64,000 nucleotides of DNA from Isoetes taiwanensis. Taxonomy: Eukaryota > Streptophyta > Lycopodiopsida > Isoetales > Isoetaceae. This document shows positions 18,863-62,204 of the stretch, in pieces. The notes beneath the pieces are model-generated. The model was not told the origin of the DNA. It did not search any database and saw only the letters and a program-made list of their open reading frames with translations. Each line of letters starts with the position of its first letter. The stretch's first letter is position 1. Both the position numbers and the translations under genes were made by a program. The DNA lies in assembly GCA_021234155.1 (NCBI GenBank), contig JAJEKV010000071.1, forward strand, positions 1,871,138-1,935,137, given 5' to 3'.

Positions 18863-18874
18863 ATTTGGGATATA
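18863..18874 (+). repeat. LINE-B target site duplication, right copy
   Basis: atttgggatata, identical to 12621-12632, directly followed by the resumed LINE-A RT frame. Confidence 0.85.
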
Positions 18875-27671: not shown

Positions 27672-27854
27672 TTAGACCCATAGTCTTCTTCTTGCATTTG
27701 AGTAATATAAACAGGAGCAGCTAGCATTGTCTAAAAGTCCAGCATGATGTATGCCATTTGACAACGGTAAGACACAGCCATCAATAGCTCCACATTTTCC
27801 TGAGGTAAGCTCCATAATTTGAGGCAAAGAATCCATATGCAAATGGATACACAC
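27672..27854 (-). other. Exon-like open segment conserved in all three units
   Basis: A 60-codon minus-strand open stretch with KCGAIDGCVLPLSNGIHH is repeated at 30573-30755 and, with changes, 33417-33656. It contains plausible splice-site-like words at its ends but has no recognisable family. It could be an exon of a host gene that was caught in the tandem duplication. Confidence 0.3.
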
Positions 27855-27939
27855 TTGCTCTATTTTTCAACAAACAAAGAAATCCAAAAACCAGATGTAG
27901 GATCTATATCTGAGAAGATGAACTGAACTCAGCAGAGCC

Positions 27940-28385
27940 TGCCTATAGCATGCTGTTCAGCATAAAGTAGGACCTAATCAGTATGAAGATTAACTGAAAA
28001 GCTTCAGCTTGTAGCATGCCGTTCCAGCCAAGAAAGAGGTCGGATTTGCAAAGTATGAAAAAGCTCCCAAAATCCGAATCAAATCAGTATTAAGATTAAC
28101 TCAGAAGCATCTGCTTATAGCATGTCATTCCAGCCAAGAAAGATGCCGGATTTGCAGAACATGAACTCTAAAGCTTCAGCTTGTAGCATGCCGTTCCAGC
28201 CAAGAAAGAGGCCGGATTTGCAAAGTATGAAAACGCCCCTTAAGAAAAATATTCAAGGCATAATCCGAACCTAATCAATATGAAGATTAACTTAGAAGAT
28301 TCAGCTTGTAACATGCCGTTCCAGCCAAGAACGAGGCCGGATTTGCAAAATACGAAAAATCCCTTTATGAAAAATATTCAAGGCA
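27940..28385 (+). repeat. Sub-repeats of about 60 bp inside the 2.9-kb unit
   Basis: Four to five imperfect copies of a block containing gccgttccagccaagaaaga and ending ggatttgcaaartatgaaaa occur at about 27945 (partial), 28010, 28105, 28170 and 28303. Corresponding sub-arrays are found in unit 2 (about 30840-31260) and unit 3 (about 33740-34160). Confidence 0.85.
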
Positions 28386-34300: not shown

Positions 34301-34690
34301 CATAATGCTCAGTTATGTAAATGAATGCCTACGAAATTAGCTATACATATTGCCATGGAAGTATTCCTCTAAAAAAAACGCCATGGTTTCTCTATGCATA
34401 TATTATGCCCATATCAGGACAATGGATTTGCCACATAAGCAAATTGATGCCTATGTCGGTCTGGATTACTATTAAGCCATGTGAGTGTACACATTAAGGA
34501 CTAAATCTAGATACTCAAGTTATCCTTATAGCAATTGCACAAAAATTTCCAAGTCCACCTGCCCAGGAGGGATAGTCAACACAAAGGTTTACTCCCTCAC
34601 GGGTGCTATTCAGTTACATTCATGTAATATCAGTAAGAGAAGCTAACAAGTAGCATGCATATATAAAAAAAAAAAAAAAAAAAAAAAAAA

Positions 34691-35499: not shown

Positions 35500-35650
35500 G
35501 TTCCAACCATGACATATAACAACTCTATAAAAATGGTGCAGGAGCAAGCCTTCCAACAATTAACAACTAAAACCCCATTGCTTGTTCTCGTTAACCTCCA
35601 TTGCTTGTCGTCATTCATTTCGCACCCCATTAACCTACCTCACACTGCAA

Positions 35651-36947
35651 ATGGCATCACCTACTGGCATCAAACGCACAGCAAGCGAAGAATCTATGCA
35701 CATGCCCAATTCAAAGTCAACAAAAACGATCCAAAAATCAACTTATTTGTTCGCTGCTCCTGGAAACGAGATACATGTCCTCGTTCTAATCCAATACGGA
35801 AACTTGCTACGACCAACATCCAACAGTTATAAGGCATTAAATGTGGATGTCGTGGACGAACAAGCAATGCACACAATCACAGTAACTGCTGACGACGAAC
35901 GCGGCGTGGAATTACAAACCGTGTTGACACCAGGTTCTTGGGTCTCCATACGTAATTTTGGTGTAAGGAAGAGAAACCCATTGTACGAGTACGGAGATTG
36001 TGTGAACACCATAAAGATTCAAAGGAACACTGAAGTGGCACCCATTGAAGGGCCTGGAGTGCTGCTCTCCTTATTGCCCACAGACAATGCAAACATACAG
36101 TCACTGTTAAACGCAACCCATGACCAACCCATACACGTCAACCTGCTAGTTGCTATTGTCGGAGTCAAAGAACATACGATGTTCCCTTGTTTGCTAATCG
36201 CAGATGGATGCGACAAAAAGGATGTCGCAGAATTAAAGTTCTGGTCTGAATAAGCATATGTGTTTGACAAGCTCAAAGACTTGTTTCTTTTAGGACGTAA
36301 ACCCATTATCTTATTCAAGACCCTAAAGGCAAGTACGTTCCGTGGTCAGACTAGCTTAACATCTACAGAAGCTACAATGGCATTCAAGATTGTCGAGGAC
36401 GCATTGTCAAGTTGGTTTCCGGATGAATTATGGTTCCCAGATGATGACATAGTAGCAAAACTCACAAATGAAGTCTTTACAGCACACGTTCTACAAAATA
36501 CCAATGTATATCTTCTACTACTAAAACTAAGCCAAAATTGTCTTCTCTTTTTACCTTCTTTCATAAGCTCTCCACTAATCAAACATCCTTGCTTGTACAG
36601 ATCACAGGCACATTAAGATTGAATACAACTGGCAAAAACAAGGTTGTCAAAACATGCAATTCTTGCAACAAGGTAGTGCCGGACAGTCTCTGCAACACGT
36701 GCAGAAACGACGACATCACAGAAGAGTTAACAATGTTCGGCGACATCGACACTGGATCCAACACGCGCTACATGTCACAATGGTAGGAGCATTGCTTGAT
36801 AAATTTCTCGATTATCCATTCGGAGGCACATTAGCTACAATGAAAGCAGATCCTCGATCATTCCGCCAAAGCATACTGAAGAGCCAGAGTAAATGCACAT
36901 TTCAGCTCAACCACCGACTCCAAATTATTGCCTTCAATAGGATCTAG
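35651..36947 (+). pseudogene. RPA70-like single-strand DNA-binding protein, broken
   Basis: The chosen start is the ATG at 35651 (MASPTGIKRTASEES), because the similarity begins shortly after it. The first part (to 36250) reads as OB-fold sequence (LFAAPGNEIHVLVLIQYGNLL, TPGSWVSIRNFGVRKRN, LLIADGCDKKDVAELKFW). A TAA at 36251 interrupts a frame that then continues unchanged (AYVFDKLKDLFLLGRKPIILFKTL) to a GT-AG intron (36506-36600, phase 0). The next exon holds a zinc ribbon (CNSC....CNTC) as in the C-terminal RPA70 DNA-binding domain. A frameshift near 36780 precedes the last block (GALLDKFLDYPFGG...), ending with TAG at 36947. One nonsense codon and one frameshift make it a recent pseudogene. 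RPA-like genes occur in the host and as cargo of plant Helitrons. Confidence 0.6.
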
Positions 36948-42100: not shown

Positions 42101-42105
42101 TGCAT
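42101..42105 (+). repeat. Target site duplication TGCAT, left
   Basis: Identical to 55332-55336 and directly outside the left LTR, which starts TG. Confidence 0.85.
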
Positions 42106-43756
42106 TGTGACGCTCCCTGCTAAACATACGGCGCCCAGCCGTACACTCGGCAGGAAATCCCCCGTCCGGCTCAACAACCGCACGGGCCCTTCGTCTACCC
42201 CGCACTCTGAGGTGATCCCTAGTGCGGGGAGGGAACACGAAGGTGTCTTGCGCGCCCTTCCCCTATGGGCTCCTATAACAGCGGAAGCGATAACACGTCA
42301 GAACTAGCATCAAACATATACAAATACTACCTCGAGGGGTAGTGCATCACACATATACCAATACAAAGATGATAAGCACAAACCGTGAAACATGAGAGCT
42401 CCTACCCCGGCTCAGACTCATAAGGAGGATGACTAACCGGCTAGGCCTCAAGATAGAGCAGACCGAGTCATGGCAATGGCGAGGGCTGGCATAGAACAAT
42501 GGCTAGGGTTGACCACTCCATCCGCCCCTCCTGTGCATACTTTGGATGGGCTAAATCAGGCTCGCATGACTCTAGCCTTCCGGATCACGCAATCCCATGG
42601 CATCACCCATCGGGACTACCTGTGTTGCATCTCCCTCGGGTCCGATGAGGCAGGGAAGGGTTGCATCTCCCTCCCCCGTGGTCTAGAGGTTCCGTGGCGG
42701 CTAGAGAATCGTGGACGCACACGCGATTCGCACCGACTTTAACCCCCAAAACGAGAGCCAAGCCAACACTTGCAGCCCCGAGAGGCAGGCGACACCATTG
42801 CCCCTGGGAGGTGTGGGACCCATGCTCGCCCACACTAAGTGACCCCACCATAAGCCTAGCTCACTATGGGATCCCCCCAAAGCCCCCCACTCGGCAGGGA
42901 TCCCCCACCACCTTCCCTCTAGCCCCGTTGTGTGGTGCTGAGTCATATCATAGCCTCGATAGCCTGGTGGGCTCCTATGCACAGGCCGCAACTAATAGGA
43001 ACTAAGGGATCTACTCTAGGAGCATACTACTTATGGCCCTAGGTCTCTACCCCCCTTCCCAAAACAAGAGGAGCAAACATGATCAACCATCATCACATAA
43101 TCATCACATCATGAGAATAATCATAAGAAGAACATCTTAACCTAATCATACAAATCTAACTAATGGTTAGGGTTCATTGATTAGGGTTCAAGATGTTGAA
43201 TACGGGTTCTAGGATGGCTCTACTCTAGATACAAGATACTAGCACATCCGGAATGCTAAGCCCAGATGAGCTATCACAACTACTACCCTACATACCTGCT
43301 CCTGATGCTCTCCCTCCAGATCCGTGTGCCTCCATGGTCTTCGACTCACGTGATGCTGCTCCTGCTCCAAGAACGAGTCTACCCCTCGGCCTGGGGCCAT
43401 TTGCACCAGCCTATGCCACAGCAAACGATGTTCGAAACGGGGTTTCGAACGAGTAGGTGAGTCTCTAGGTGCTAGGGCTGGAAAAAGGCCTAGGGTTAGG
43501 GTTTAGGCCTATATAAGTTAGGTCCACCTAGGATGCCACGTGGCACCAATCGGGTGAGTCCTGTGTGGCGGGTGCCCAATAGGTTAAGGCCACGTGGATA
43601 ATGGTCTTAGCCTATGGTTGGCTAAGTTATGTGAATAACTTGGCCATGCCCCCTAGTGCCACAATCTATGGTATACAAGGCTATGAAGATAGACTTGTAT
43701 GGTGGCGGATCCAGGAATATACGTATTTATGGCGTATATTCCCTTGGACCGTCACA
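42106..43756 (-). repeat. 3' LTR (left), 1651 bp
   Basis: It begins tgtgacgctccc and ends ggaccgtcaca on the plus strand, with TG...CA termini on either strand. It matches 53685-55331 over its full length, with clustered small differences. On the sense strand it carries a TATA-like ttatatagg next to a telo-box-like aaaccctaaccc (about 43495-43520) and a 9-bp palindrome gttcgaaac/gtttcgaac (about 43429-43450), both also in the other LTR. Confidence 0.92.
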
Positions 43757-43771
43757 TTCTCCCCCCCTTAG
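43757..43771 (-). promoter_or_regulatory. Polypurine tract
   Basis: The sense strand reads taagggggggagaa directly before the 3' LTR, the usual primer for plus-strand synthesis. Confidence 0.85.
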
Positions 43772-44594
43772 GACAATGCTGTCCTCAGCATTAAGCGCTT
43801 AAGGTGATTTAACCTACCTTATGCCTGCACAAGGGACAACATGTCATAACCTTTAGCTTATTATAGTAATCAAGTTTTATTAGTTCAAGTCAAAATTTAG
43901 GCTATATTTGTACTTATACAAAATTATATAGCCTTAACACGGTTATTTCTTACGATAATTCAAACATTATTATAAGAGTTATTATCTTCTCGTAATGCGC
44001 TCCTCGTTGAAGTCCGCCTTCTACTTGCCTACAAAAGGAGCACATTACGTTAGTTTAGTTAATAATTTGTGGTTTTAGGGGACCACCCCCCTTACCTCCT
44101 TGAGCCGAACTACTGACTCAAGGTTGTCCTACTACCTTGTCCAAGATCATGGCCCTTTCGGATTTGAGCTTAAGGATCATTTAAGATGCTCCCATCGTAA
44201 GCCCATGATCGAAAGTGCTACCTTGTACTTTCGGTTACTTGGTTGCCGAAAGTACCCCTAGTGCATCATGCCCCACGGGTTTGAAGCTAGGGAACGCCTC
44301 ACGATCCCATCATCGCAAGATGATCACTTTAACCCTCACCATGACCCTCCTACGGCCAGGTGTGCGTACCCCGCATCGTGGCATAGAGATCATCCGATCG
44401 ATGTCCCATCATCGCCCACCATGCCTCATTCCTCACTCACATGACCCTAAAGGTCATGTGCACCTCTTGGTGCGTGTGGCCTAGAGAATGCCCTAAAGGC
44501 GTATCCCATCATCGCCCACACGATCCAAAGTTCTGGCACATGCACCCTACTAACTAGAATGCATGCGCCAGGCTTAAGGCTAACTAACAACATA
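43772..44594 (-). other. 3' untranslated region of the LTR element
   Basis: No supported ORF lies between the chromodomain stop and the polypurine tract. Confidence 0.6.
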
Positions 44595-45356
44595 CTAGCT
44601 AACCACCGGCAAGTCGGGATTCGACCAAGCCCGGAGACGACTTCGACCATCAAACTCCTTCATAAACTCTGGGTATTGCTTCTCCAAATCTTGCTTCAAT
44701 ACCCATGTCGCATCTTCCACGGGTAAGTGCTTCCACTTAACCAAATATTGGAGGAACTGAGACCTCCTAGTCTTCTTGAATGACTTATCAAGAAGTAATT
44801 CGGGCACTATTTCTACTTGCTCCTCCGTCATTTCCAACAAGGTTGGAGTATCCAAAACCTCCTCAGGGTTAGGATTGTGCCTTTTTAATAAACTTACGTG
44901 GAAGACCTTGTGAACTTTGAGATGGGCCGGAAGATCCAACTTGTAGGCTTGGGAGCCCACTCTCTCCAAAATCTTGAACGGACCAGCCCACCTAGGGGCA
45001 AGCTTCTTACAACTCCCAATCCGAAGCTTGGCTTGCTTCACCTTGATCTTCAACCAAACGCTATCGCCTACCTTGAATTCTCTTACGGTCCTGTGCTTGT
45101 CGGCTACACTCTTCTGCCGACTTCTTGCTGCTAATAAGTAACCCCTTACTTCTTCCACTAGCTGCTGCATATCCCCTAGCATCTGCTGGGATACTTCCAC
45201 CTTCGACACAGGATTGTGCCAGGTATCCGGGGTTAAGCACTGGTACCCGTAATTTACCATAAAAGGAGACATCTGAGATGACTCTTGCTTGGCACTATTG
45301 TAGGCGAATTCCACCAAGTGGATGTACTCATCCCACTTGGACTGCTTGTTCCACAC
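44595..45356 (-). pseudogene. Integrase C-terminal half with chromodomain
   Basis: A 253-residue open frame. Residues 1-35 are the end of the integrase core (EYIHLVEFAYNSAKQESSQMSPF). Then comes the conserved GPF.ILERVG..AYKLDLP (GPY/F module, about 135-160) and VFHVSLLKRHNPNP. The chromodomain runs to the end: residues about 205-237 contain QYLVKWKHLPVEDATWVLKQ, with the aromatic and acidic positions of chromovirus chromodomains. Chromodomains of this class steer integration to chromatin, often through modified histone H3 tails. The frame begins without its upstream integrase core, which lies in other frames. Confidence 0.9.
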
Positions 45357-46856
45357 ATAGCTTCAAGCATGTCTTCAATGATCCGATTCGTCCCCTCCGT
45401 CCCGGCCATCTGTTTGGGGATGATATGCCGTGCTCATGGAGAGCTTCGTCCCGAATGGTGCTAAAGAGATCCCGCCAAAAGGCACTCATAAACTTAGAAT
45501 CTCTATCGATATTATCTCCCGAGGCATGCCATGGAGTCTAAAAAATCTCCCTTACAAATAACTTGGCAAAGATCTAATGCGGTGTGGGTAGTCTTGCAAG
45601 GCACAAAATGTGCCATCTTAGATAACTTGTCTACGACAACCATCAATGCATCCTTGCCTCAAGAGTTCTAGGGAGCCACAGAATGAAATCCATGCTTATG
45701 ACCTCCCACTTCGCATTTGGCACCCCCAATGGCTCAAGAGCACGGAATCGAACTGGGTTGCTCCGCTTTGGTCTGCCGACATAACCGGCAATCCCGAATA
45801 TATATGCAGCTATCGCCTCTTCATTCCTGGCCGAAGTAACTACTTGAATCTTGAAATAGGTCTTCATGAAGCCAAGATGCCCCGCTATTGGGCTGTTATG
45901 TGTGTCATGAAGAATTAGCTTCCTTACCCCCGATGATTGGGCACACACAACTTATGCTTGTGATACAACGGGTTGCCTTCCTTCTTATAATGCTTGAAGG
46001 CTTCCCGCTCTTTATCCATTCGCTTCCTTGGAAAGGCTTTCCCACACCTCCTTGAAGTCCACATCCGTTGGCAAGGACTCCTCAATCTTCTTGCCAAATT
46101 CACTTTCGAAGAGTGGAAATCGTGATTACAATGCGCCCTTGTCCGAAATGGCCTCCCGGAGAGGGCATCCGCTACAACATTAAGCTTGCGGGCTTATATA
46201 CAATATCAAAATCATACTCCTCAAGAAATTCCATCCACCTCCTTTGCCTTAAATTGAGGAGTGGCTGGGTAAAAGATATCGCAGACTCGTGATCAAAGAT
46301 CCAACTGAAACTTCCTCCCCAAAGCAAATAATGCCTCCATATCCTTAATGCCCGACAATGGCTAGCAGCTCCCCGATCATGGGTTGGGTAGCGTTGTTTC
46401 GGCGTCGTTCATCTTCTTCGAGTCGAGGCTTGACTACCCTTCCTTCTTGCATCAAGCTCTGTTGCTATCTTACTTGCATCATTTGCTATCAACTTATCTT
46501 TACTGGTCCGGGAGAACCAAAGATCGTGTTTGTTGTTAAGGCCTCCTTAAGCTTCTCGAAGGAAGCTTGGACTTTCTAACCAATGACTAGTCCAATCCTT
46601 AATCTTCTTGGCCTTGGTGAGGTCCGGCTGAGGGGACGCCCACTTAGCAAAGTCCTTACTTAACTTTCTCGTAATATCCCGCCAACCCGAGAAAGCTTCT
46701 TACTTACGCCACATTCCTTGAGTGGCCAATCAACTATTGCCTCAATCTTAGATGGATCTCGTGGAGATTCCCTCGGATGTTACTACATGCCCCAAATACT
46801 CCACTCTACTGTTGCAAAGTGGCACTTAGAGAGCTTCCCATACAACCGATGACGCC
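45357..46856 (-). pseudogene. Integrase N-terminus and RNase H, degraded
   Basis: At 45643-45948 the zinc-binding start of integrase is seen (HDTHNSPIAGHLGFMKTYF), and then PVRFRALEPLGVPNAKWEVI with SMDFI, which holds the first catalytic Asp. Further catalytic segments lie in other frames. Between 46.0 and 46.8 kb the RNase H region is interrupted by several frameshifts and was not traced residue by residue. Confidence 0.7.
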
Positions 46857-47429
46857 TCAACTTTTCCAAGACTTTCCCCGAGATGTCGACAATCTTTGCT
46901 CAAGGGACTTGCTGTAGATTAGAATGTCGTCGAAGAAGACAATAACAAACTCATCCAAGAAGTCTCTGAAGATGTCGTTCATGAGGCGCATAAATGTTGC
47001 TGGAGCGTTCGATAGTCCAAAGGGCATTACTGTAAACTCAAAATGACCATACCGCGTTCTGAAAGCGGTCTTATGGATATCCTCTTCTTTTATTCTTATC
47101 TGATGGTATCCTGACCTTAAATCAATTTTAGAGAATACCTTTGCTCCTTGTAACTGGTCCATTAGGTCATCTGCCCTTGGCAATGCATATTTGTTCTTTA
47201 TCGTCTGCTTATTGAGCTGGCGATAGTCTATGCACATTCTTAAGCTCCCATCTTTCTTCTTCACAAAGAGTATAGGTGCTCCGAAAGGAGACACACTTGC
47301 TCTTATAAAGCCAAGCTCAAGCAATTCCTGAAGCTGCTTCTTGAGCTCAATCAATTCAGGGGTGCTCATTCTATATGGCGCCTTACTGGTAGGCTTCGCA
47401 TCTGGAGCCAACGTGATCTCACATTCCAC
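46857..47429 (-). pseudogene. Reverse transcriptase of the LTR element
   Basis: A 190-residue frame with the Ty3/gypsy RT signature: [66 protein letters not shown]-like [15 protein letters not shown], and the catalytic [14 protein letters not shown]. The YVDD/YLDD box reads FFDD; both catalytic Asp residues are kept. A frameshift after LEQR ends the frame. Confidence 0.9.
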
Positions 47430-47654
47430 ACCCCTATAAGGTGGCAGCTGCCGGATTTCATCCGGAAATACATCCTTGAACTCGGAAATAAGCCTTGCTA
47501 TCCGCTTTTGGGCAATTGATTTCCCTTTGGGTCACTTCCATCCCGCTTGCCCGCTCAAGCGGATTCCATCCTCAAGATGTAGTCCACCTTATTCCTTTCT
47601 ATACTCTTCCTTAGCCGCTTCAAAGAGATACACCGCATGGGAGAATCTAGCTTC

Positions 47655-48298
47655 TTACCTTTCACTATCAATTTTTGCCGCCCGCGCCGTCATGGTGACT
47701 TCTGTCCGGGCCGCTTGATCAATCATGGCTTTGGCTGGCTTCAAGAATTCCATCCCCACTATAAGATCGTATCTTCCGATATCCATGACTTCCGCCCCCA
47801 TCGGCCACTTAGCCCCACTAAGGTCTATGTCAAAGATGATTCTCCTACCCTTAGTGTGCCGAATGGCGCCGTTTGCCATAGCCACTGGCCTTGGCTTAGA
47901 CTTCAATACCTTGTTCTTCATTAAGGCAGACCAACCTAGGAGATGCAAAATTGTGAGAGCTACACGTATCTATGAGGACTACATATGGATTACTATCTAT
48001 GATCCCATCAACCGATGACGGTCGGTCGATTCTCAATATCACCTGTCTCAATGTTTGCACATATGTGGCACTCACCATCTATGAAGTCCTGGGCCTCCTG
48101 CTGGTCGCCGCCCCGGCCCGCCACGTTGGGGAGTCCCAATCGACCCGCCCGCCAAGGCTGCCCTCGCATGACGAATGGGCAATCATGCGTTGATTGCCCG
48201 GGCTGGAAGCACTGAAACATAACTTTTCTCAATGCATTCTGTCTCTTTTCCTTTCGGCATCGCCTAGGAGACGCTTTGAGAGCACCGCCCCGATGCAT
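47655..48298 (-). pseudogene. Aspartic protease and gag zinc-knuckle region
   Basis: The frame 48008-48298 has a gag knuckle-like segment, CFQPGQSTHDC, which lacks the second Cys of the usual CxxC. The next frame (47896-48078) gives VVLIDTCSSHNF, matching the retroviral-type protease motif DTGSS but with Cys in place of Gly. The frame 47655-47948 continues with protease flap-like sequence (DIGRYDLIVGMEFL). Both key residue changes and the frame shifts indicate loss of function. Confidence 0.75.
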
Positions 48299-48479
48299 TC
48301 TCTCGCGACTACGGTCCCCAAAAGCTTTGTTCGACCCTTACCTTTGCTGCTGACCTCGATGGTGTGGCTGGCTGATTGCTTACCCCGATATTGCCCCCGA
48401 GCACGCCTCGAACTCTTACCCCCGAAGGTTGATCGCTTCTCTGGCTGGAGTTCTTTGGTGCCTCCTCCAAACTTATAGC

Positions 48480-49440
48480 TTTATCTTCGGCCCCTCGAAT
48501 CGACCTTGGGTTGATTGCTCTAACACGCCTCTTGATATTGATTTGTTCAACCCCTCAATGTAGGTATCCACCGCTTGCCTTTTCGAGACTCGGGAACATG
48601 GAGCCTAAGCCTCATGAATTCTTCGGTATACTTAGCCACTGATAAGCTACCCTGATTCAACCTGTAAAACTGCTGGATCTGTCTACTAGTATGAGACCTT
48701 GGCACATAGTGCTTGCGGAAAGCCTTGCTGAAGGTCTTAAACCCGCAATTGTTCCTCTTGACTTGTTAGACTTAGCATATCCCTTCCACCAGATCCTTGC
48801 CGGTCCAATAAGGTTAGCTGTAGCAACTTTCCCTATGTCCTTGTCTTTCATACCGTAGGAGTTACCAAATTCTTCCATTTCATCAAGCCATGCTTCAGCC
48901 TCCATGCCCGACCGTCTTTCCCCAGAACGGCCCGGCTTCCTTTGTCTTCCATACGTTGCTCATAGCACTATCTACCTTTTTCGATAGTCATCCGCCTCTT
49001 TCTTGCCCTTTTCCTTACTCTAGATGTGTGACCGATTTGACCGTTTGAGCTAGAGCTGTCCCCCTTTGGAAGAACCGCCCCCGATGAGCTGGAGCTAGAT
49101 GATGATGGGCTCTCGGTTCTTCTCTTCCTTCTCCTATCCCCGCGTTCCCCCAGGTTGCCCTCCCCTTCTGGCCGAGGGCCTTCGCCGCCACCCTCGGGAA
49201 CACAAGGTGGAGGTGGAGGACCATCTTCTGATGCGTTCATCGGGAGGTGTCGCCCGAGTTGATGAGGTGTTGCATCGGTTCCTCATCCGCACCAACCTTG
49301 CGTTGGATCGCCCTCGGTGACATATCCCCGCTTTCGAAGTCCTCTTGTTCTCTCGCCAAACAAATTCCTTGGTACCCAATTGCGTTGTCGGTGGCCGGGT
49401 CTTGAGATCCCCGCGACTTGAGTTCCTTCTTTGCAAGGAT
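48480..49440 (-). pseudogene. Gag capsid region
   Basis: The best block is 48657-48905 (AEAWLDEMEEFGNSYGMKDKD, then ATANLIGPARIWWKGYAKSN), the retrotransposon gag domain with its WW pair. A proline/Glu/Ser-rich N-terminal stretch is at 48968-49240. Several frameshifts lie between. Confidence 0.75.
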
Positions 49441-50948
49441 TGATCATCAATACATGTTATTTGGGTTAGATGTTGATCAATCTTACTTGTAATTGAATTA
49501 TCTTTATTAGTTATAAAGAAATCATACAAAGCCTTGCATTTATAAAACAGTTAATAGCCATTAATACATAAGGATTACATGATAGGGTAGATATGTCTTA
49601 GCACAATGGGTACAAGAAAACATTTAGCACACAACTTAAGAAAATTTTACAACTATTCAATGGCCTCCCGAAAGCCTGAAGAGGTTCTTGACATCCCTGA
49701 ATCGGAGGCCTTTGCCGAGGTTGCGCAAGATGTTCCTTGTCGATCTTCCTTCAAGTGCTCGGGCCATCTCCGGGTTCGAAGTTCTCGTGTCATTTCGCTA
49801 CCACCGAAAAGTGTTGCATCCCTAAGGTGCCCTCGCAAAGTCGAGGCAATGGGTTTTGACGGCCCCTGTTGAAAAGGATGATGTGGTCGGCATGGGCGTA
49901 TATCTTCGAATGCTGCCCAAAGCCGGAGAGCGCTATGAGAAGTGCCACGGATTCCTCCCCCCTTGGGCTGAACTCCTTGTGGAAGACTATCATTTGCCCT
50001 TGGCTGAGGGCTGGAAGATAGTATCGAAGTGTCGTGCCCTTCCCTGTACCTCGCGATCCAATGCCCTTCCTTTGAGCCGCTTCGGGCCAGAGGCATCCCG
50101 CTGCGATAAGATCTTCATGATCTCTCCACATCTTTGGTTGCGTTGTCCGGTTGATGCCGCTGGACCCTTCCCTCATGCTCTGGCTCGAACCGGGTCGGCT
50201 TGAGCTTGGGCCCCTCCCCGGTTTGTAGAGTGTGCTCAGATCTGCTGGAACTCCTCCTCCGAGATGATAGGTTCTCTTTGTCGATAGATCTCCCTTATCT
50301 GGCGATAGGCTGCTATATCCGACATTGTCTCCCCGCATAAGAGTGTCTCTCCGCCAGGCTCCTTGGAATCTCCCGGTATGAGTAGTCGATGAAGTCTGCG
50401 CTCTTCCCATGTGCTATCATGCCTAAGAGCTCGTCAATTCAAGACCACGATTTCCCGGCAATAAGACAAGTTGAGGATGTGGATTTTGCAAAATATACTC
50501 CTCCCCGCCGATGACTATCGGCGACAGAAGGCCGGATGCCGGGAGGCTCGGTAGCTCTTTCGATGTCGCCGTCGTCGTGCCTCGACATGTACCTCTGCAT
50601 CCTTGTTGCCTCCCCGCTCTCCCATTCTCGGGTTTTGCCCCTAATTTTTCGTAGTCTTCATGGATCTGCAGAGATGGTGCCCCGACGTCGTGCCATGGTA
50701 TTCATAAAGGAGGACTCTATGTTCGAGGATTTGATCCCGGGCCCTACTGTATCAAGTGGCGCTAAGTCTAAGGGCTGAATGAAGGTTCTCCTACTTTGTT
50801 GATTGACTTATAGTGCATGAAAAGGGCAAGGGGCTGGGTGCGGGACGAAATGTACCTATGCCTATTGTGTCTGCAGGGTCATATAATCGGGCATGGTCCT
50901 AGTCCTATCCCATAGTCGCTTCTTGCCTTTGGATCCCGCCAACTCGAC
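49441..50948 (-). other. Uncharacterised coding-like region between the extra ORFs and gag
   Basis: Overlapping minus-strand frames look protein-like in pieces, for example LLSPIVIGGEEYILQNPHPQ (near 50480-50540) and MSDIAAYRQIREIYRQREP (near 50260-50325), with stops and shifts between them. I recognise no domain. They suggest another decayed ORF in the long pre-gag part. Confidence 0.35.
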
Positions 50949-51428
50949 CTAAGACTTGGGCGAAGTGTCTAGAGAAACCCAATTCCATCCCCTAGGAGGT
51001 AGTCTAACTTCCCAAGGCAGGACTTGCTGGTCATATTGGCACATAATGTCTGTGTAGTAGGGTGTTCTAGTCAGAGTTGCATGCAGATCAAACAAGTGGT
51101 CGAACACGAGAGAAGGCTTGATCTGGTGAAGTCGATGGATATGGCTTAAAGCATTGTACCATCTCTCAAAGTTCTTTGGGCCATTGAGTAGGAAAGGGTG
51201 CAGAAAATGGCTTGCAAAGATCAGTGAAGGATCAGAAAATCGCCTAAGGGGCTGGGAGCAGTTCTGTAGAAGGAAAAATGGCAAATGAGACCTCTTTTTA
51301 TAGACTATGGGTGAGCTCGGGGTTCGTGCAAAAAGGTACCTACCTAAGACGGCCTTGGTTCTATGGCTCTGGGTGTCCAAATGAACTACCATGAAGTGCA
51401 GATTTAAGCAAAACAAAGCAAGAAACAC
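50949..51428 (-). CDS. 159-aa ORF of unknown function inside the LTR element
   Basis: An uninterrupted sense-strand frame with an aromatic- and His-rich composition, including NGPKNFERWYNALSHIHRLH and ending WEVRLPPRGWNWVSLDTSPKS. It lies between the H3-like coding region and gag. No family similarity is evident, no zinc motif is seen, and the N-terminal part is hydrophobic but does not form a convincing signal peptide. It may be the remaining part of a longer accessory ORF. Confidence 0.45.
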   Translation of the reverse strand: MFLALFCLNLHFMVVHLDTQSHRTKAVLGRYLFARTPSSPIVYKKRSHLPFFLLQNCSQPLRRFSDPSLIFASHFLHPFLLNGPKNFERWYNALSHIHRLHQIKPSLVFDHLFDLHATLTRTPYYTDIMCQYDQQVLPWEVRLPPRGWNWVSLDTSPKS

Positions 51429-51449
51429 TACATGGCAATTTATTGGATC

Positions 51450-51770
51450 AAATTTGGCTAATTTGGGTCAAAAATGGGCTGACCCGGGTGAATCCGCGCG
51501 GATGGCCTCCGCGTCGCGGACGCAGACGCGTTTGGCGCGGTCTCACCCGGTTGGCCTATTTTGGAGCCATTTTTGGTCAATTTTGGGAGTTTGAAGATGC
51601 TAACATGGCTAATTGGGCCGATTCTAATCTAACTAGCAACTTATTTTGAGCAAAACTGACACCAAAAAGCATGTTCTTGGGGCGTCCCGGGTGAATCAGC
51701 GAAACGAGCGTCGTCCGGGACGCAGAGGCCATTGGCGCGGTCTCACCCAGTTGGCCCAATTTTCAGCTTT
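51450..51770 (-). repeat. Two diverged copies of a ~180-bp block in the element leader
   Basis: 51478-51562 and 51664-51757 share cgggtgaatc, a g/c-rich segment with gacgcagacgcg or gacgcagaggcc, and ggcgcggtctcaccc followed by ttggcc. Each is followed by a T-rich piece. The repeat lies just downstream (sense) of the H3-like stop codon. Confidence 0.7.
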
Positions 51771-51990
51771 TTTTGATGATTTTTTTTTTGCCAAATTTTC
51801 GTTGTAGTTATGATTTCTAGGGTATTCCTAAGCATACTATGAAGAATTCTACCACAATTGGGTTCTATTTCCTAAATTTCAAGCATCCAACATTTTTCTA
51901 ATTACAGAGGAAAATAACTTTTATATTAATATGGGAAACACAATTACATGAAAATTTAACTTTTCTAACAAAATTTACAAAATTTGAGGC

Positions 51991-52566
51991 CTAGGGCCTC
52001 TCCCTGCGGATCCTCCGTGCTAAGTGAATGTCCTTCGGCATGAGGGTGACTCGCTTAGCATGGATTGCGCAGAGGTTCCCTTCCTCGAAGAGCTGCACCA
52101 GCTCTGCTTCGGCGGCCTCTTGCAGGGCCCGGGTCATTAGAGGGGTAACCCTATAATCGGTCCGGAACTCCTGCATTACTTCCCTAAGGAGACGCTCGAA
52201 GGGCGCCTTCCTTATCAGGAGATTCGTGCACATCTGGAAGTGCCTTATCTCCCTAAACACCCGGGCGTACGTGCTGTTCGGCCCGTGGTGAACCCTCTTG
52301 GGTTTTTCCGGTCTAGGTGGGGGTGGCTTGGGCTGGTTCTTCTTCGGCCTGCCGCCCTCCACAACCCGCTGCACCTCCTGGCGGCAATACCAATCGTTGT
52401 ACCTCGTCCAACGACGGAGGTACTCCTTGTATGCCGCCATTTTGCGCTTAAATTCGCGATCCTGTTGGAGCGCGAATGCCCGCTCCCCTACCTTCTGCTT
52501 CTTCACCACCTTTGGTGGCTCTGGCCACTTCGGGTAGGGTGGCCTCGCATCGGGGTTTGAAGCTTC
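51991..52566 (-). CDS. Histone H3 fold-encoding ORF of the retrotransposon
   Basis: An open frame of 191 codons after an in-frame TGA (52567-52569). Counted from the internal Met at 52509 it has 172 residues. Residues 1-75 are basic and Pro-rich. Residues 86-172 are a full histone H3 core: alpha-[17 protein letters not shown], alpha-1 [16 protein letters not shown], alpha-2 [20 protein letters not shown], then [14 protein letters not shown] and the end [10 protein letters not shown], against LARRIRGERA in canonical H3. Loop 1 has the same length as canonical H3, and MPKDI is kept, so it is not CenH3-like. At canonical K56 it has Met and at K79 Arg. The Cys of CAIHA is kept. The fold would pair with H4. 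It lies wholly between the LTRs, in the element's sense. Confidence 0.93.
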
Positions 52567-53108
52567 TCAGAGCGGGCCGGTGTCCCCTTCCTCTTCTTCT
52601 TCCTCCACCTCCTCATGTTGGCGCTGGGGAGGCTCTTCTATGACGACGGTCCTGCGAGGCTCGTCGTTCTTCCTCTTCGTCGCCTTTCCCGGCTCCCTGC
52701 TCGCCCTCTCCCGCTCCCGCTTCTTCACGGCAGCCCTCTCCTCCGGCCATTCATGACCTTTTCCTTACCCTTCTTCTTGGGCCTTTGAAGGGCCCGCTTC
52801 TTCGATGCAGTGCTGGTCTTTGCTCTTCCACCTGTTCTTGACCTGCTCTTCCACCTCGGTGTCCAGAGGCCCGAGAATGGCGGGACTCGCCTGCTTCTCT
52901 GCGTGCCCCGATGACGAATCGCCGCTGGGGCTCTCCTCGGCATCATGGAAGCTCGTCAGTGGTTCTGCTTCGCCGGGCTGGGGACTCCTCATCGCGGGCT
53001 TCTACCGAAGGTGTTCGGGGACCTTCTTGACGCCGCCTGGCCGCCTGCGCCATGGAGAGGGTGGGCCTAGGGCCGATCTTCCCCGTAGGTTTGCTTGGTG
53101 CGTGCCAT
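51991..53108 (-). pseudogene. Complete retrotransposon histone H3-like gene, 4 lesions in this copy
   Basis: The ATG at 53108 gives MARTKQT, the exact canonical H3 start with Lys4. In the next frame TGKIGPRPTLSMAQAARRR follows, which aligns with canonical H3 residues 11-28 (TGGKAPRKQLATKAARKS). After a second frame change near 52990 one frame runs to the end: an acidic and basic linker (SGDSSSGHAEKQ, EERAAVKKRERERASRE, an EEVEEEEEE run), then the histone fold. Only TAA 52765-52767 and TGA 52567-52569 interrupt it. The intact protein would have about 373 residues against 135 for H3, with a linker of roughly 200 residues between tail and fold. It starts about 570 bp downstream of the primer binding site and would be the first ORF of the genomic RNA. 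Confidence 0.85.
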
Positions 53109-53670
53109 GTCTTGTGGTTCGGGAAATGGGTGACGTAAGGTCGAGCAAAGAGAGAGGTGGAGGTGAAAGGTTGAGAGAGAGAATGAGGTGTCGATATTTA
53201 AAAAGGAGGGTCCCTAGGAATATTCTCCCACCATAATTACCCCTATTTATTAGCCCCCCTTATTAATTACACCACATTTAGTAATTATTTAATTATTAAG
53301 ATATGTATTACTCCTGTATTAATTCGTATTATACCTAAAATTTTTCGAATTTTCTAATGGTTTGAAGTGCTAATTATGGATTTGCGCCATTTTTCACTCG
53401 GGTCTCCGATTGGTATGATTCTTCGACCCATTTTAGGTGAAATTTGATGCAGATGCATAATTTTCACTCCAAATTTACTAGAAGATGAATTTGACTTACG
53501 CATTCCTTCGTCTAACACTTATCCTAAGTCCTGACCCACTACCTAGGAGAAAAATTTTTCCCCTATTTTCGCGGTTCAACGGTGGAAATGTTTATTTCAC
53601 ACCTCCTATAGGCTTGTTAGACTACTTCCATGGTTATGGTCAGTGCTAGTTCCTGGTCAACCAAGAACAT
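53109..53670 (-). other. 5' leader of the LTR element
   Basis: AT-rich sequence between the primer binding site and the H3-like ATG, with no supported ORF. Confidence 0.5.
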
Positions 53671-53684
53671 TGCTCTGATACCAT
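53671..53684 (-). promoter_or_regulatory. Primer binding site, initiator-Met tRNA
   Basis: The sense strand reads atggtatcagagca immediately after the 5' LTR end. tggtatcagagc is the standard plant retroelement site complementary to the tRNA-iMet 3' end. Confidence 0.9.
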
Positions 53685-55331
53685 TGTGACGCTCCCTGCT
53701 AAACATACGGCGCCCAGCCGTACACTCGGCAGGAAATCCCCCGTCCGGCTCAACAACCGCACGGGCCCTTCGTCTACCCCGCACTCTGAGGTGATCCCTA
53801 GTGCGGGGAGGGAACACGAAGGTGTCTTGCGCGCCCTTCCCCTATGGGCTCCTATAACAGCGGAAGCGATAACACGTCAGAACTAGCATCAAACATATAC
53901 AAATACTACCTCGAGGGGTAGTGCATCACACATATACCAATACAAAGATGATAAGCACAAACCGTGAAACATGAGAGCTCCTATAAAACTCGGACTCATA
54001 AGGAGGATGACTCTTAGGCTAGGCCTCAAGATAGAGCGTAACCGAGTCATGGCAATGGCTTAGGGTCGGGCATAGAACAATGGCTAGGGTTGACCACTCC
54101 ATCCGCCCCCCGTGCATACTTTGCGGATGGGCTAAATCATACTCGCATGACTCTAGCCTTCCTGGACACGCAATCCCATGGCATCACCCATCGGGGACTA
54201 CTCCGGTGTTGCATCTCCTCGTCCGGGATGAGGCGTGAAGGGTTGCATCTCCCCTTCCTGTGGTCTAGAGGTTCCGTGGGCGCTAGAGAATCGCGGACGC
54301 ACACGATTGCACCGACTTAACCCCCAAAACGAGAGCCAAGCCAACACTTGCAGCCCCAGAGGAGGTGGCGACACCATTGCCCCTGTGAGGTGTCGGACCC
54401 ATGCTCGCCCACACTGAAGTGACCAGACCATAAGCCTAGCTCACTATGGGATCCCCCGGCCCCCACTCGGCAGGGGATCCCCACCACCTTCCCTCTAGCC
54501 CCGTTGTGTGGTGGGCCGAGTCATATCATAGCCTCGATAGCTGGTGGGCTCCTATGCACAAAGCCGCAACTAATAGGAACTAAGGGATCTACTCTAGGAG
54601 CATACTACTTATGGCCCTAGGTCGCTACCCCCTTCCCAAAACAAGAGGAGCAAACATGATCAACCATCATCACATAATCATCACATCATGAGAATAATCA
54701 TAATAAGAGCATCTTAACCTAATCATACAAATCTAACTAATGGTTAGGGTTCGTTGATTAGGGTTCAAGATGTTGGATACGGGTTCTAGGATGGCTCTAC
54801 TCTAGATACAAGATACTAGCACATCCGGAATGCTAAGCCCAGATGAGCTATCACAACTACTACCCTACATACCTGCTCCTCGATGCTCTCCCTCCGGATC
54901 AGGTGTGCCTCCATGGTCTTCGACTCACGTGATCTTTTGCTCTGCTCCAAGAACGAGTCTACCCCCGGGGCCATTTGCAGACCGTCTATGCCACAGCAAA
55001 CGATGTTCGAAACGGGGTTTCGAACGAGTAGGTGAGTCTCTAGGTGCTAGGGCTGGAAAAAGGCCTAGGGTTAGGGTTTAGGCCTATATAAGTTAGGTCC
55101 ACCTAGGATGCCACGTGGCACCAATCGGGTGAGTCCTGTGTGGCGGGTGCCCAATAGGTTAAGGCCACGTGGATAATGGTCTTAGCCTATGGTTGGCTAA
55201 GTTATGTGAATAACTTGGCCATGCCCCCTAGTGCCACAATCTATGGTATACAAGGCTATGAAGATAGACTTGTATGGTGGCGGATCCAGGAATATACGTA
55301 TTTATGGCGTATATTCCCCTGGACCGTCACA
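53685..55331 (-). repeat. 5' LTR (right), 1647 bp
   Basis: Same boundaries and internal landmarks as the left LTR, including the palindrome (about 55006-55027) and the TATA/telo-box stretch (about 55070-55095). In the sense direction it holds the promoter for the H3-gag-pol transcript. Confidence 0.92.
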
Positions 55332-55336
55332 TGCAT
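55332..55336 (+). repeat. Target site duplication TGCAT, right
   Basis: Matches 42101-42105. The restored target reads catctaggtga...tcacctagatg, a short hairpin. Confidence 0.85.
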
Positions 55337-55463: not shown

Positions 55464-57321
55464 CTAATATTCATCATCATCATTTTCATCAGGAGATTCA
55501 GCTCCAACCTCCTCATAATCCTTCTCCAAAGCTGCAAGGTCCTCCCGAGCTTCTGAGAATTCACCTTCCTCCATTCCTTCACCAACATACCAGTGCACAA
55601 ATGCGCGCTTTGAAAACATGAGGTCAAATTTGTGGTTAATACTTGCAAACACCTCAGCAACCGCAGTATTGTTACTGATCATACACACTGCTCGTTGAAT
55701 GCGTGCAAGATCCCCACCTGGGATGACACTTGGAGGCTGGTAATTGATGCCACATTTAAATCCAGTTGGGCACCTATTTAAAATTTCAAAGAAAAAGTAA
55801 GAAAATGGTGCAAGAAGAAAATTAGAAGGCCAAAAAACAACCCAAAAAAAAAAAACAAACAAGCAAACAAACAAAGAAAATATAGATGAAGAAAAAAAAA
55901 ATGGCGCCCTAAAAGATGATGAAACATGAACCCTAAAATTCTAGAGTAGATACTTACCAATCGACGAATTGCACAGTTCTTTTGGTTTTGATAGTTGCAA
56001 CAGCGGCCTGGACATCTTTAGGAGTTAAATCGCCTCTGTACATCATGCAGCAGGCCATATATTTGCCATGGCGAGGATCGCATTTGGCCATCATAGAATT
56101 AGGCTCGAAAACGCTGTTTGTAATTTCTGCAACAGAAAGCTGCTCATGGTATGCCTTCTCGCCGGAAATTACCGGAGCATAAGATGAAAGCATGAAGTGA
56201 ATCCTTGGATATGGCACTAGATTGGTCTGAAATTCTGATATATCCACATTTAGAGCCCCGTCGAACCGTAGCGATGTCGTTAATGAAGAAATAACTTGAG
56301 CTACTAATCTGTTCAGGTTTGTATATGCCGGTCTTTCTATGTCTAGGGATCTTCTGCAAATATCATAAATTGCTTCGTTGTCCAGGAGAATCACAACATC
56401 TGTGTGTTCAATCAAAGAATGCGTGGATAAAACACTGTTATATGGCTCCACAACTGCTGTTGAAATCTGCAGAAACAGGGATTGGAAATGCTTTCTCAAA
56501 AAAGGATGGAAAGTTTTTAGTGCAGAAACAGGGGATTTCCAAATGCCCTTTCTAAATCTAAAAAATTAAAGAAACAGAAATTCAAGCAATCCCCTTACTC
56601 TAGGAGATGGATAAACTGTAAAACCGAGTTTGGATTTCTTGCCAAAGTCGACCGACAGACGTTCCATTAATAAAGAACCCAGGCCGGAACCCGTGCCTCC
56701 ACCTACTGCATTAAAAATAAGAAATCCCTGCAAGCCGGAGCAATTATCCGCAAGCTTTCTGACACGATCAATGCATAGATCAACATTTTCCTTCCCAACT
56801 GCAGAAAGGAAACTTACAATGGTAAGAACAGAGCAATTGAACAAGGATTTTAGGGGCAAATGCATGAATAATTCTTGCCTGTGTAGTGGCCTCGAGCAAA
56901 ATTGTTGGCCGCATCTTCCTTGCCGGAGATTAGCTGCTCCGGATGAAATAATTGTCGATAATTTCCTGTGCGTACTTCATCAATTACTGTAGGCTCTAAA
57001 TCCACCATTATAGCTCTAGGAACATGCTTTCCAGCCGTGGTTTCGCTGAAAAATGTGCTGAAAGAATCTTTCCCAGTACCGGCCGCTTCACTACAAAATC
57101 AACAGCATAATTCCATCAAATTTTACTTCAAAAATAAGCAATCAAGACTCTGCGAAACAGAGCGTTTCTACAGTCTGAGAAAAAGATTAACAAAATTCAG
57201 GGACATACGCAAGAATTCTTCCATCAGGTTGAATGCCATGCTCGAGACAGAAAAGCTCCCAGCAAGCATTTCCTAACTGGATACCTGCCTGGCCGATATG
57301 TATACTGATAATTTCTCGCAT
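55464..57321 (-). CDS. TUA: Alpha-tubulin, divergent isotype, five exons
   Basis: Exons on the minus strand: 57209-57321, 56879-57090, 56599-56798, 55958-56466 and 55464-55773, which join in frame to 447 codons plus TAG. The protein starts [20 protein letters not shown] and has GTP-binding GGGTGSG, the catalytic Glu in the DISEFQTN segment, [23 protein letters not shown] and an acidic tail ending DENDDDEY with the terminal Tyr. It polymerises with beta-tubulin in microtubules. Introns 1, 3 and 4 are GT-AG; intron 2 (56799-56878) starts with GC (acag|gcaag), a known minor type. The loop at residues 36-50 is unusual (RILAEAAGTGK): one residue shorter, with Ala at the usual Lys40 acetylation site. 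No frame lesions are seen, so it is probably functional. The LTR element inserted about 130 bp beyond its stop. Confidence 0.95.
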
Positions 57322-60506: not shown

Positions 60507-62204
60507 CTACTGTCTCAATCCAGAAGAGCTGTGGGACCCCGTGCGAATTGATGCAATAGCTACAAGCTTGTTCCTGGACAATGAAGCAAGCAGATAAGCT
60601 TGGGGCCCTGGTGCCAAGGTGGGACTTATGTGTGCATGATAATGACCAGTTTTCACTTGGGCCAAAGTAACTGCGTCCCATATCTTTTGAGAAAAACGAC
60701 CATTGAGATATTGTTGCAAAAGCCCAGGATCAGAACTGGCAAGCATCAGGCAATGCTCTGGTTGCACAGCCCAACGGGCAAACCATGTAGTGCAATGCTC
60801 TTTCCAACATCGTTTCAAACGCTGAGGAGATTCAGCCATGGCAAGTGCAAGAACAGGATACCTAACATCATCCATGTGGTGCACCTTGCAGATAGAGTGG
60901 AGATGGCGGTTCATGGCAGAATGTTGAAGAGGCCAAAAACTTGTCTCTTGTAAAAGAATAGCATAGGGCACCGTTGTTTTAACTCCGAGGCTGTAAGTGA
61001 GAAAGGACTTTTGCACCCGCTCCAAGCTCTCCCAAGCACTAGCACTAATGGCAGGCCCCCACACTTCAGAACCATACAAAAAAAAGGCTCTACCAAAGCC
61101 GAAACAAGTGGGCTTTCCGCGGGCCAATCATGAATTCTCTTGAAAACAATTGTTTTGCATTGCATAGAGTGCTCTCCATCCAAGCAGACTACCGGCTTGG
61201 TAATACTTCGTTCCCAAAGTGTGTTCTTCTGAATTCTACACCAAGATACTTGTAGCTATCTACAACTTCAACCGGCGGCTATCATAGTGCATAGGGGAAC
61301 ATTGTGACGAGAAGATTGAACTACCAAAAGCTTGGTCTTTTGGAGAGTAACACGCAGACTGTGTTCTTACAAAAACCGTGCGAGCATGTAAATGTTCTTT
61401 GCATACTAGCGGCGGTATGTGCCAGAAGTGAAACATCATCAGCATACATAAGTTGCCTAATGATATAGTGTGCCAAATGTGGACCTCCGCCGCCATGATT
61501 ATCAAGCCATTCTTCCAATTGATCAATGTACAAGCCAAAGAGTGTAGGAGATAAAGTGCAACCACGGCGAACTCCAATATTGCTAGTGATTTGAGTACAC
61601 GATCTTTGGAAATTTAGCAAAACCCTTTCATAGAGCCGATAAACCGCATTTTGAAGATCTTGTGGAACCCCAAGTGCACGCAAAGCCGCCAAAGAAGCTC
61701 GCGTGGTAATTGTATCAAAAGCAGAAGTAAAATCCACAAAGCATATATAGAGGTCTTGTTTCAAACTTCGACTATGTTCAATAAGCATGCGCAATGTGAA
61801 AATATGGTCTATTGTAGAAAGGCATGGACGAAAGCCTGCCTATCCTACAAAGACGCACACAAAGTATGTTACGCCCATGATGTCAACTGCTTCGGTAAAA
61901 GACTGGCTAAGAGCTTTGAAAATATGGAACTTACCGTGATCATGCGATAATTAGAAGGGTCATGCTTATCACCTGCTTTGTAAATTGGTACGACCTTACT
62001 GACAGCCCAAGTTTCTGGCAAGCCTTCTTGCAAAGCTTGATTTAAAAGACTAGTGATGATTGGAAGCAATAGCGGACCCCCCCATTTAAGCAATTCTGCT
62101 TGCAAACCTTGAAGATCAGGAGACTTGCCATTAGATAGATGCCGCAGTCCTTCTTTGACTTCCTCCTCTGTGAATTGAAGAATATCACCTACCAAAGGAG
62201 GCAC
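60507..62204 (-). pseudogene. LINE-C reverse transcriptase and C-terminus
   Basis: Frame 61869-62204 has the RT entry (EEVKEGLRHLSNGKSPDLQGL, VSKVVPIYKAGDKHDPSNYR). Frame 61321-61794 has the core (FVDFTSAFDTI, RRGCTLSPTLFGLYID, QLMYADDVSLL). Frame 60507-61127 has the post-RT region (FLYGSEVWGPAISASAWESLERVQ). Two or more frameshifts and a gap near 61130-61320 separate them. The style (IDQLEEWL and microsatellite tail) is unlike LINE-B. Confidence 0.85.

Follow-up and report, generated by a model that had tools for sequence, protein, structure and literature searches.

Histones are among the most conserved proteins of the host, and transposons are usually the targets, not the makers, of histone marks. 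Several described systems, each cited here from part of the respective paper, resemble the case reported below. In Pseudocercospora fijiensis and other Dothideomycetes, hAT transposons have likewise captured and amplified histone H3 (784 H3-like copies); 90% of the P. fijiensis copies are truncated and mutated by repeat-induced point mutation (RIP), and those of Pyrenophora tritici-repentis are putatively functional (PMC6710886). Giant viruses of the Marseilleviridae and Medusavirus likewise encode histones of their own (PMC8015243). In Phalaenopsis, a lineage of Ty3/gypsy elements carries a fixed, host-derived extra open reading frame (ORF) with another domain, that of an N6-methyladenosine (m6A) demethylase (2-ODD); the orchid survey, covering 121 angiosperm genomes and no lycophytes, has 15 unusual domains in its filtered list, with no histone among those named in the part cited (PMC9289625). 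Plant chromoviruses with group II chromodomains, defined by the loss of the first and third cage residues (Tekay-, Galadriel- and Reina-like elements, and SM-Diluvium and SM-Cranky of Selaginella), have the same long terminal repeats (LTRs), primer site, gag-PR-RT-RH-IN order and chromodomain without Y24 and Y48 as the present element, and are likened to it by these features, not by reverse transcriptase (RT) clade (PMC3350952). The element described here lies in a 64,000-nucleotide stretch of the lycophyte Isoetes taiwanensis (GenBank assembly GCA_021234155.1, contig JAJEKV010000071.1, positions 1,871,138 to 1,935,137 of the forward strand), which is called the window in what follows, and it belongs to a high-copy chromovirus lineage in which the first reading frame, ORF1, ends in a histone H3 fold under purifying selection. 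The ORF1 product is read as a nucleosome-forming H3 variant that would serve the element, a reading to which a probability of about one half is given.

The H3-bearing reading frame

The element occupies positions 42106-55331 of the window on the minus strand and is a 13.2 kb LTR retrotransposon of the chromovirus branch of Ty3/gypsy, with its pol domains in the order protease (PR), RT, RNase H (RH) and integrase (IN) and a chromodomain at the integrase C-terminus. ORF1 (51991-53108, minus strand) runs from an ATG at 53108, which opens MARTKQT, to 51994, where a complete H3 fold closes it; in the sense strand the H3 region (53108-51994) lies upstream of gag (48959-48550). The open C-terminal stretch of 191 residues (51994-52566, minus strand) comprises a helical region and the fold, whose core of 95 residues lies at 51994-52278 on the same strand. 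Positions 51994-52509 match the Pfam family Histone (PF00125; 3.3e-30, 105 bits), and the best PDB chain for the open stretch is an H3 (115.6 bits, E 2.2e-32); by these sequence matches the fold is assigned to the H3 family. A first-pass annotation, made from the letters of this DNA, had proposed a Ty3/gypsy element encoding an H3 variant in the sense strand ahead of gag, between matching LTRs with a target duplication, and the LTRs and flanks (described with the other parts of the element below), the pol domains and the Pfam and PDB matches bear this out. It had also described a coding region running from MARTKQT to the full fold: both ends are present, but they do not form a continuous H3, being separated by about 260 non-H3 residues, and the frame is not intact in the window copy. 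There three frames share the N-terminal part, two in-frame stops interrupt the main frame, and, because the start reads MARTKQTYGEDRP, the match to the H3 tail ends at residue 6. The window's own copy is dead.

Intact copies exist elsewhere in the assembly. Three diverged subfamilies, A, B and C, have the H3-bearing ORF1, ORF2 and gag in common, and the window copy is one of the 30 fetched loci of subfamily A, 14 of which have a whole ORF1, open from MART through the fold; the MART frame is broken in 15 of the other 29. In an intact copy (L007), ORF1 consists of an H3-like start of about 10 residues, a charged non-H3 linker of about 260 residues and the whole fold. The first ten residues of the 14 whole A frames read MARTKQTYRK in nine, MARTKQTARK (the exact H3 sequence) in four and MARTKRTYRK in one; all 14 retain K4 and K9, and position 10 is not S. 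The start of L007 matches the H3 tail better than 2,000 shuffles (p 0.0005). In subfamily B, 14 whole frames encode ORF1 proteins of 408-425 residues with a MANTKS-like start, a domain of about 300 residues without known family and an H3 fold that is 85-87% identical to host H3 in the two compared. Subfamily C is represented by one fetched locus (L069), whose ORF1 domain shares 29% identity with the B domain (E 2e-35) and whose fold is 87-89% identical to host H3; a query with the C domain gave 5,476 candidates, of which 117, when scored, yielded 120 matches at 100 down to 53% identity. The canonical N-terminal tail of H3, with K4, K9, K14, K18, K23, K27 and K36, is not present in ORF1, subfamily A having only its start of about 10 residues. 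An H3-tail origin of the B and C linkers, considered for their ARKS-like motifs, is unsupported in the one linker shuffled from each (p 0.20 in L050 and 0.32 in L069). Against 5.8 billion proteins, the non-histone part of B (L061, residues 1-300) had no match at E<=0.001, and that of A (L007, residues 1-275) had none at E<=0.01 among the best 8,000 candidates scored. The fold query returned 6,558 proteins, mostly H3s of all kinds among the 120 listed; the 12 inspected were H3s, tandem H3s and H3s with other N-terminal extensions.

Amplification, placement and selection

The H3 fold is highly amplified in the assembly searched (1,658,258,908 bases in 1,110 contigs). The fold-core query gave 9,043 first-look candidates, the best 150 of which scored at 85-100% amino acid identity on very many contigs. 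A canonical plant H3 query found 15 near-canonical genes (97-99%), followed by 135 places at 71-87% with open frames of up to 567 residues, and the RT query had 29,531 first-look candidates, the best 150 scoring at 93-100% identity. Exact sites for CAIHAKRVT, searched with a degenerate pattern whose R position also admits S, numbered 1,052 and 1,038 (2,090, host genes and all subfamilies together), against none for the reversed control. The H4 control returned 69 candidates with 51 matches, 16 of them full-length at 99-100%; given 2,090 H3 motif sites against 69 H4 candidates, the amplification is of H3 and not of H4 (H2A and H2B were not searched). A general capture of histones, or an assembly artefact multiplying histones, is rejected on account of the unamplified H4. 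Copy numbers may roughly be put at 940 for A (150 x 150/24) and 780 for B (135 x 150/26), of the same order as the 2,090 sites, if the best-scoring lists were independent, which they are not.

For subfamily A, the best 150 H3 and best 150 RT places form 24 pairs in which RT follows H3 in the same orientation, at a distance of 4,370-4,485 bp in 22 of them, and no pairs in other arrangements within 12 kb; for B, the best 135 H3 and best 150 RT places form 26 pairs, 18 at 4,325-4,624 bp. The distance departs from this main spacing in two of the 24 A pairs and eight of the 26 B pairs, and one B pair has its parts in the wrong order. Since both place lists hold best scores only, these pair counts are not frequencies. 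A check anchored on RT was made on contigs C1-C235, with the complete motif list and the eight RT places that the best-scoring lists hold there: in six cases (C71, C101, C112, C138, C223 and C224) an exact H3 motif stands upstream of RT, in the same orientation, at a distance of 4.1-5.3 kb; for the place on C212 the fold is matched 4.6 kb away but the exact motif is missing, and for C200:81537 the contig has no H3 motif. These places are few, and family members without H3 may exist. Eight of the ten fetched B and C loci have gag at about 3 kb downstream from the fold. The first-pass annotation had named a host H3 retrocopy inserted only into this copy as the reading opposed to its own; that candidate is rejected, since many copies have ORF1 in a constant position and at a constant distance, between primer site and gag-pol, and the H3 region is a component of the family at a set position.

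In the B and C loci L061-L070, ORF2 and ORF3 (for example L063:3977-5419 and L061:5643-6137) are accessory frames between ORF1 and gag without a Pfam family; between B and C, ORF2 is 51% identical over 197 residues and ORF3 76% over 127, and ORF3 was not found in A. Decayed or rearranged copies are common, judging from the ten fetched loci: L065 and L068 have the fold only, with no gag or pol match, L069 has gag and no pol match, L061 and L064 have no RT match, and in L062 PR and RT are inverted. The integrase-chromodomain part is 81% identical to that of the window in L064 and 44% in L061, though both have a B-type ORF1, a contrast that suggests mosaic elements.

Selection on the fold was estimated from loci chosen in two ways, L001-L030 and L046-L060 being the best-scoring matches of the fold query and L061-L070 being hand-picked for long open frames, and this choice by fold similarity or open frame biases the nonsynonymous divergence (dN) of the fold downward. 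By the Nei-Gojobori method, the fold has a ratio of nonsynonymous to synonymous proportions (pN/pS) of 0.050 in A and 0.036 in B. Under a codon model, the ratio of substitution rates (dN/dS, omega) is 0.039 in A (29 distinct sequences), 0.029 in B (22) and 0.003 in host H3 (12), with log-likelihood gains of 167, 258 and 303 units, respectively, over omega fixed at 1 and kappa at 2; the ratio across copies, which the first-pass annotation had proposed to check, is thus far below 1. Regions that were not used for picking have pN/pS of 0.18 (B N-terminal domain), 0.195 (A positions 1-36), 0.197 (A linker), 0.096 (A pre-fold) and 0.37 (B linker). When the same B loci are compared with L070, pN/pS is 0.057 for the fold (five pairs), 0.058 for RT (four), 0.207 for gag (five), 0.211 for protease (four) and 0.188 for the ORF1 N-terminal domain (four to five). 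For a typical pair, the neutral chance of so few replacements, corrected for the 9,043 candidates, is about 1e-13 for A and lower still for B. The picking bias is answered by the constraint on unpicked ORF1 regions, by a fold ratio equal to that of RT in the same loci and by this tiny neutral chance. The H3 fold is under purifying selection at the level of RT.

These figures bear directly on the idea that the H3 piece is a passive passenger, a captured fragment or host retrocopy without a role that hitch-hikes as in the Pseudocercospora hAT transposons. The capture of gene pieces by transposons is known (PMC6710886), the window copy is broken, and so are the 15 A loci mentioned above; the piece is, however, kept at one place in three diverged subfamilies, and omega values of 0.03-0.04, with the likelihood gains and neutral chances just given, leave a passenger very improbable.

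The history of the capture is less sharply resolved. The C fold is closest to the host H3.3-like gene L045 (89% vs 87%), with T31 and H87 in common, and B and C have S86T, V89I, E105G, T107A, I124L and A135P in common; the likeness of C to L045, together with the substitutions common to B and C, weakly suggests that the donor was a host gene of H3.3 type. A fold tree without CenH3 rows sets A, B and C together apart from the canonical H3s (support 88/74), with B and C joined (75/79). A single capture is tentatively favoured by this tree, by the shared ORF2 and by the common position; the host rows do not form one clade in the tree that included CENH3. The RTs of A and B are 81-90% identical in L066, L067, L070 and part of L063, whereas their folds are 63-69% identical; the A RT is 44% identical to the other part of L063 and 54% to the inverted RT of L062. 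The contrast between RT and fold possibly reflects exchange between subfamilies or fast change of the ORF1 of A. Divergence of the fold from host H3 (pN) is 0.254 in A, more than twice that of B (0.114) or C (0.097), and the H3-like start of A may have been retained from the captured gene or gained later.

The divergence of A raises the question of a centromere-like (CenH3-like) role for its H3. REIRHFQ, TNLL and RVTLM are common to A and Arabidopsis CENH3, and A is further from host H3 than B or C are. Loop 1 of all three subfamilies has, however, the length of H3 and not the greater length of CENH3 (by alignment with CENH3 and CENP-A), the joining of A with CENH3 in the tree is flagged as a meeting of long branches, and the copies are spread over very many contigs, so that such a role is given hardly any credence. 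A host CenH3, a possible donor, was not identified, the best 150 scored places being filled by H3-like sequences.

Possible roles of the ORF1 protein

The residues of the fold were compared, in H3 numbering, in 30 rows of A, 24 of B (two of which repeat loci already included) and one of C. R49, R63, R72, R83, R116, K64, K115, T118 and K122 are unchanged in all 55 element rows, and so are C110, H113, D123, L126, R129 and I130 of the H3-H3 and Asf1 surfaces; residues of these sets make the DNA contacts, the H3-H3 interface and the Asf1 face of H3. The residues on which pairing with H4, formation of the tetramer and wrapping of DNA depend thus appear, from this comparison, to be largely kept. What has been replaced is most of the H3 tail (K27 and K36, and in B and C also K4 and K9 in their normal place) and the H3.1/H3.3 chaperone patch: at positions 86-90, where host H3s read SSAVL, STAVL or SHAVL, A reads P-L-M-T-R (with Q at 90 in one row), B T-F-A-I-L and C T-H-A-I-L. 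Subfamily A also has K79R or K79Q.

On this basis the element-encoded H3 is best read as a nucleosome-forming variant. A chromovirus lineage would have taken up a host H3, perhaps of the H3.3 type, and the captured H3 would now form the C-terminal part of a protein of the element's own, ORF1, whose gene lies between primer site and gag. ORF1 would be translated and enter the nucleus, where it would pair with host H4 and be incorporated into nucleosomes as an H3 variant, whether at new insertions, on element cDNA or in target chromatin; its new N-terminal domain could serve to bring in factors of the element or the host, and the net effect would be an element-controlled patch of chromatin favouring expression or integration. 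With the chaperone patch and most of the tail replaced, ORF1 nucleosomes could not carry most of the normal silencing marks. Among the roles considered, this one is ranked before an integration tether, a decoy for chaperones or tail readers and the packaging of cDNA, in that order. The first-pass annotation had suggested deposition on chromatin, packaging of the cDNA or a change in silencing, and these roles too are proposals.

Several observations weigh against a nucleosomal role. An AlphaFold model of the open stretch of the window copy is poor (pLDDT 65.7), though the expected helices are present, and its superpositions on H3 chains are bad (rmsd of about 10 A or more, query-length TM 0.27-0.29); the assignment to H3 therefore rests on the sequence. 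The fold of the elements has an omega about ten times that of host H3, five of the 30 A rows have R52K and one has R69H, and K56M occurs in A. Compared with L045, 28 of 87 fold positions are changed in A, which may mean another partner or role. A Foldseek search with the same model gave 274 PDB matches at E<=0.001, the 50 listed being nearly all histone or nucleosome entries.

A more far-reaching version holds that the lineage makes its own chromatin. It joins the captured H3, the RT-level constraint on the fold and the loss of most of the modifiable tail, and supposes that private nucleosomes shield the copies from H3K9/K27 silencing or mark targets; the start of A, MARTK[QR]T[AY]RK, would be a possible mimic of K4 and K9, either kept or regained. 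This version is tentative, with the odds somewhat against it. If it were true, the arms race would include a histone variant on the side of the parasite.

The role next in rank is that of an integration tether. ORF1 would enter or dock on host nucleosomes by its H3 fold and hold integrase or the pre-integration complex by its N-terminal domain, thereby steering insertion, much as LEDGF/p75 steers HIV integration. That domain is diverse (29% identity between B and C) and yet under purifying selection (pN/pS 0.18-0.19). In an alignment with HP1, the chromodomain of the window element, which may act together with such a tether, has lost two of the three cage residues, Y24 and Y48 being replaced and W45 kept. 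With Y24 and Y48 replaced, direct reading of H3K9me by the chromodomain is doubtful (part of PMC3350952). Against the tether, other chromoviruses with the same type of chromodomain are not described with such a factor in the part of that paper cited here (PMC3350952), and the role is judged unlikely.

The conservation of the Asf1 face could instead mean that ORF1 acts as a decoy, titrating Asf1, HIRA or CAF-1 or, in A, the readers and writers of H3K4 and H3K9, so that silencing would be weakened without incorporation into nucleosomes. C110, L126, R129 and I130 are kept in all 55 rows, and in A the tail mimicry has support from K4 and K9 in 14 of 14 whole frames, from the shuffle test of L007 and from the constraint on positions 1-36. 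Yet the exact MARTKQTARK occurs in only four of these 14 frames and S10 is replaced, the tested B and C linkers lack a significant tail match, and most of the DNA-contact arginines, needless for a pure decoy, are kept too; a decoy is held to be somewhat less probable than a tether.

Packaging or nuclear import is the role ranked last of these four, with ORF1 and H4, or ORF1 alone, compacting the cDNA of the element inside virus-like particles or the nucleus. ORF1 is encoded by the element upstream of gag, and the histones of giant viruses are thought to package viral genomes (part of PMC8015243). On the other hand, the ORF1 frame is separate from gag, no H4, H2A or H2B match occurs in the element frames scanned by Pfam, and H4 is unamplified in the genome (where H2A and H2B were not searched), which makes packaging improbable.

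A high-copy clade that has retained an H3 fold of its own in three diverged subfamilies is a natural experiment that separates the nucleosome parts of H3, where the fold is kept, from its regulatory parts, where tail and chaperone patch are replaced, and chromatin encoded by a parasite becomes directly testable in a living plant.

Remaining features and known systems

The right-hand LTR (53685-55331, minus strand, 1647 bp, TGTGACG...CGTCACA) and the left-hand LTR (42106-43756, minus strand, 1651 bp) are 94.91% identical (Kimura two-parameter distance, K2P, 0.053; 44 transitions and 39 transversions in 1632 aligned positions), and the target duplication TGCAT stands directly outside both (55332-55336 and 42101-42105). 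The primer-binding site TGGTATCAGAGC, presumably of the Met-tRNA type, follows the right-hand LTR on the minus strand (53683-53672), which identifies that LTR as the 5' LTR and the direction of transcription as leftward; the same 12-mer lies upstream of ORF1 in six of the ten fetched B and C loci. Directly inside the left-hand (3') LTR is the purine-rich tract AAGGGGGGGAGAA (minus-strand reading). All parts between these ends are on the minus strand. The spacer between ORF1 and ORF2 holds a direct repeat of about 110 bp (51475-51584 and 51678-51784, 74%). The ORF2 region (approximately 49656-51182), accessory and without a Pfam family, is broken here; 50041-49865 matches the ORF2 of C (E 8e-8) and the overlapping 50068-49901 that of B (E 1.6e-4). 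The gag core at 48550-48959 (Retrotrans_gag 4.4e-10 on 48550-48765) is 61-73% identical over 28-49 residues to eight of the ten B and C loci. The protease region (47658-48078; Asp_protease 0.0047, below the Pfam cut-off) is 55-71% identical to five B loci and 33% to an inverted match in L062, and the protease frame of L061 passes the cut-off (RVP_2 3e-13). RT lies at 46860-47531 (RVT_1 9.6e-31) and RNase H at 46175-46408 (RT_RNaseH 6.2e-9). The zinc-binding and core pieces of the integrase (45331-45951) are broken, with Integrase_H2C2 at 1.1e-4 on 45646-45951, under the Pfam cut-off, and no Pfam family on 45331-45537; the homologous frame in L064 scores 6.7e-20 for Integrase_H2C2. The integrase C-terminus and chromodomain (44598-45362, the latter at about 44804-44649) match SH3_Tf2-1 at 2.1e-23 and Chromo at 1.8e-11, the Chromo score in L064 being 2.9e-8.

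About 130 bp separate the 5' LTR from the end of an alpha-tubulin-like ORF, whose exons were recognized by reading (55464-56865, minus strand; Tubulin_C 1.6e-9 on 55465-55874). Elsewhere in the window, a segment of about 5.1 kb within 26679-34672 has a second copy about 2.9 kb farther along (97% identity), with shorter internal repeats. Positions 22145-25720 (minus strand) and 35582-36253 (plus strand) hold a Helitron-like protein (Helitron_like_N 8.3e-19) together with one helicase-like and one RPA-like ORF recognized by reading only. LINE-like non-LTR ORFs lie at 9759-20117, including by reading one of 1192 residues (13161-16739, minus strand), and at 60507-62204, where 61322-61794 matches RVT_1 (2e-15).

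No histone-bearing LTR retrotransposon was found in the open-access papers searched, subscription papers and preprints being outside that search, and the word 'histone' is absent from the main text of the genome papers of I. taiwanensis (PMC8566536) and I. sinensis. From the repeat library of I. taiwanensis, repeats resembling plant proteins were filtered out, as stated in the part of that paper cited (PMC8566536), so that H3-bearing elements may have escaped masking and entered the count of H3 genes.

Compared with the group II chromoviruses, the present elements have two or three extra ORFs upstream of gag, the first with a terminal H3 fold, and no such ORFs are described in the part of PMC3350952 cited here. 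The giant-virus histones belong to large DNA viruses, where they occur as tandem doublets or as sets of several histones (part of PMC8015243), whereas here a single eukaryotic H3, near that of the host, is found in a retroelement; in the Foldseek viral structure library there was no match at E<=0.001, the best (E 4.2e-3) being a Marseillevirus protein. A histone-capturing hAT transposon is ruled out for the window, where the element is bounded by LTRs and has RT. The nearest known case is the H3 captured by fungal hAT transposons (part of PMC6710886), from which the Isoetes lineage differs in being an LTR retrotransposon with long intact ORFs, in which H3 is a C-terminal module and is held under strong purifying selection.

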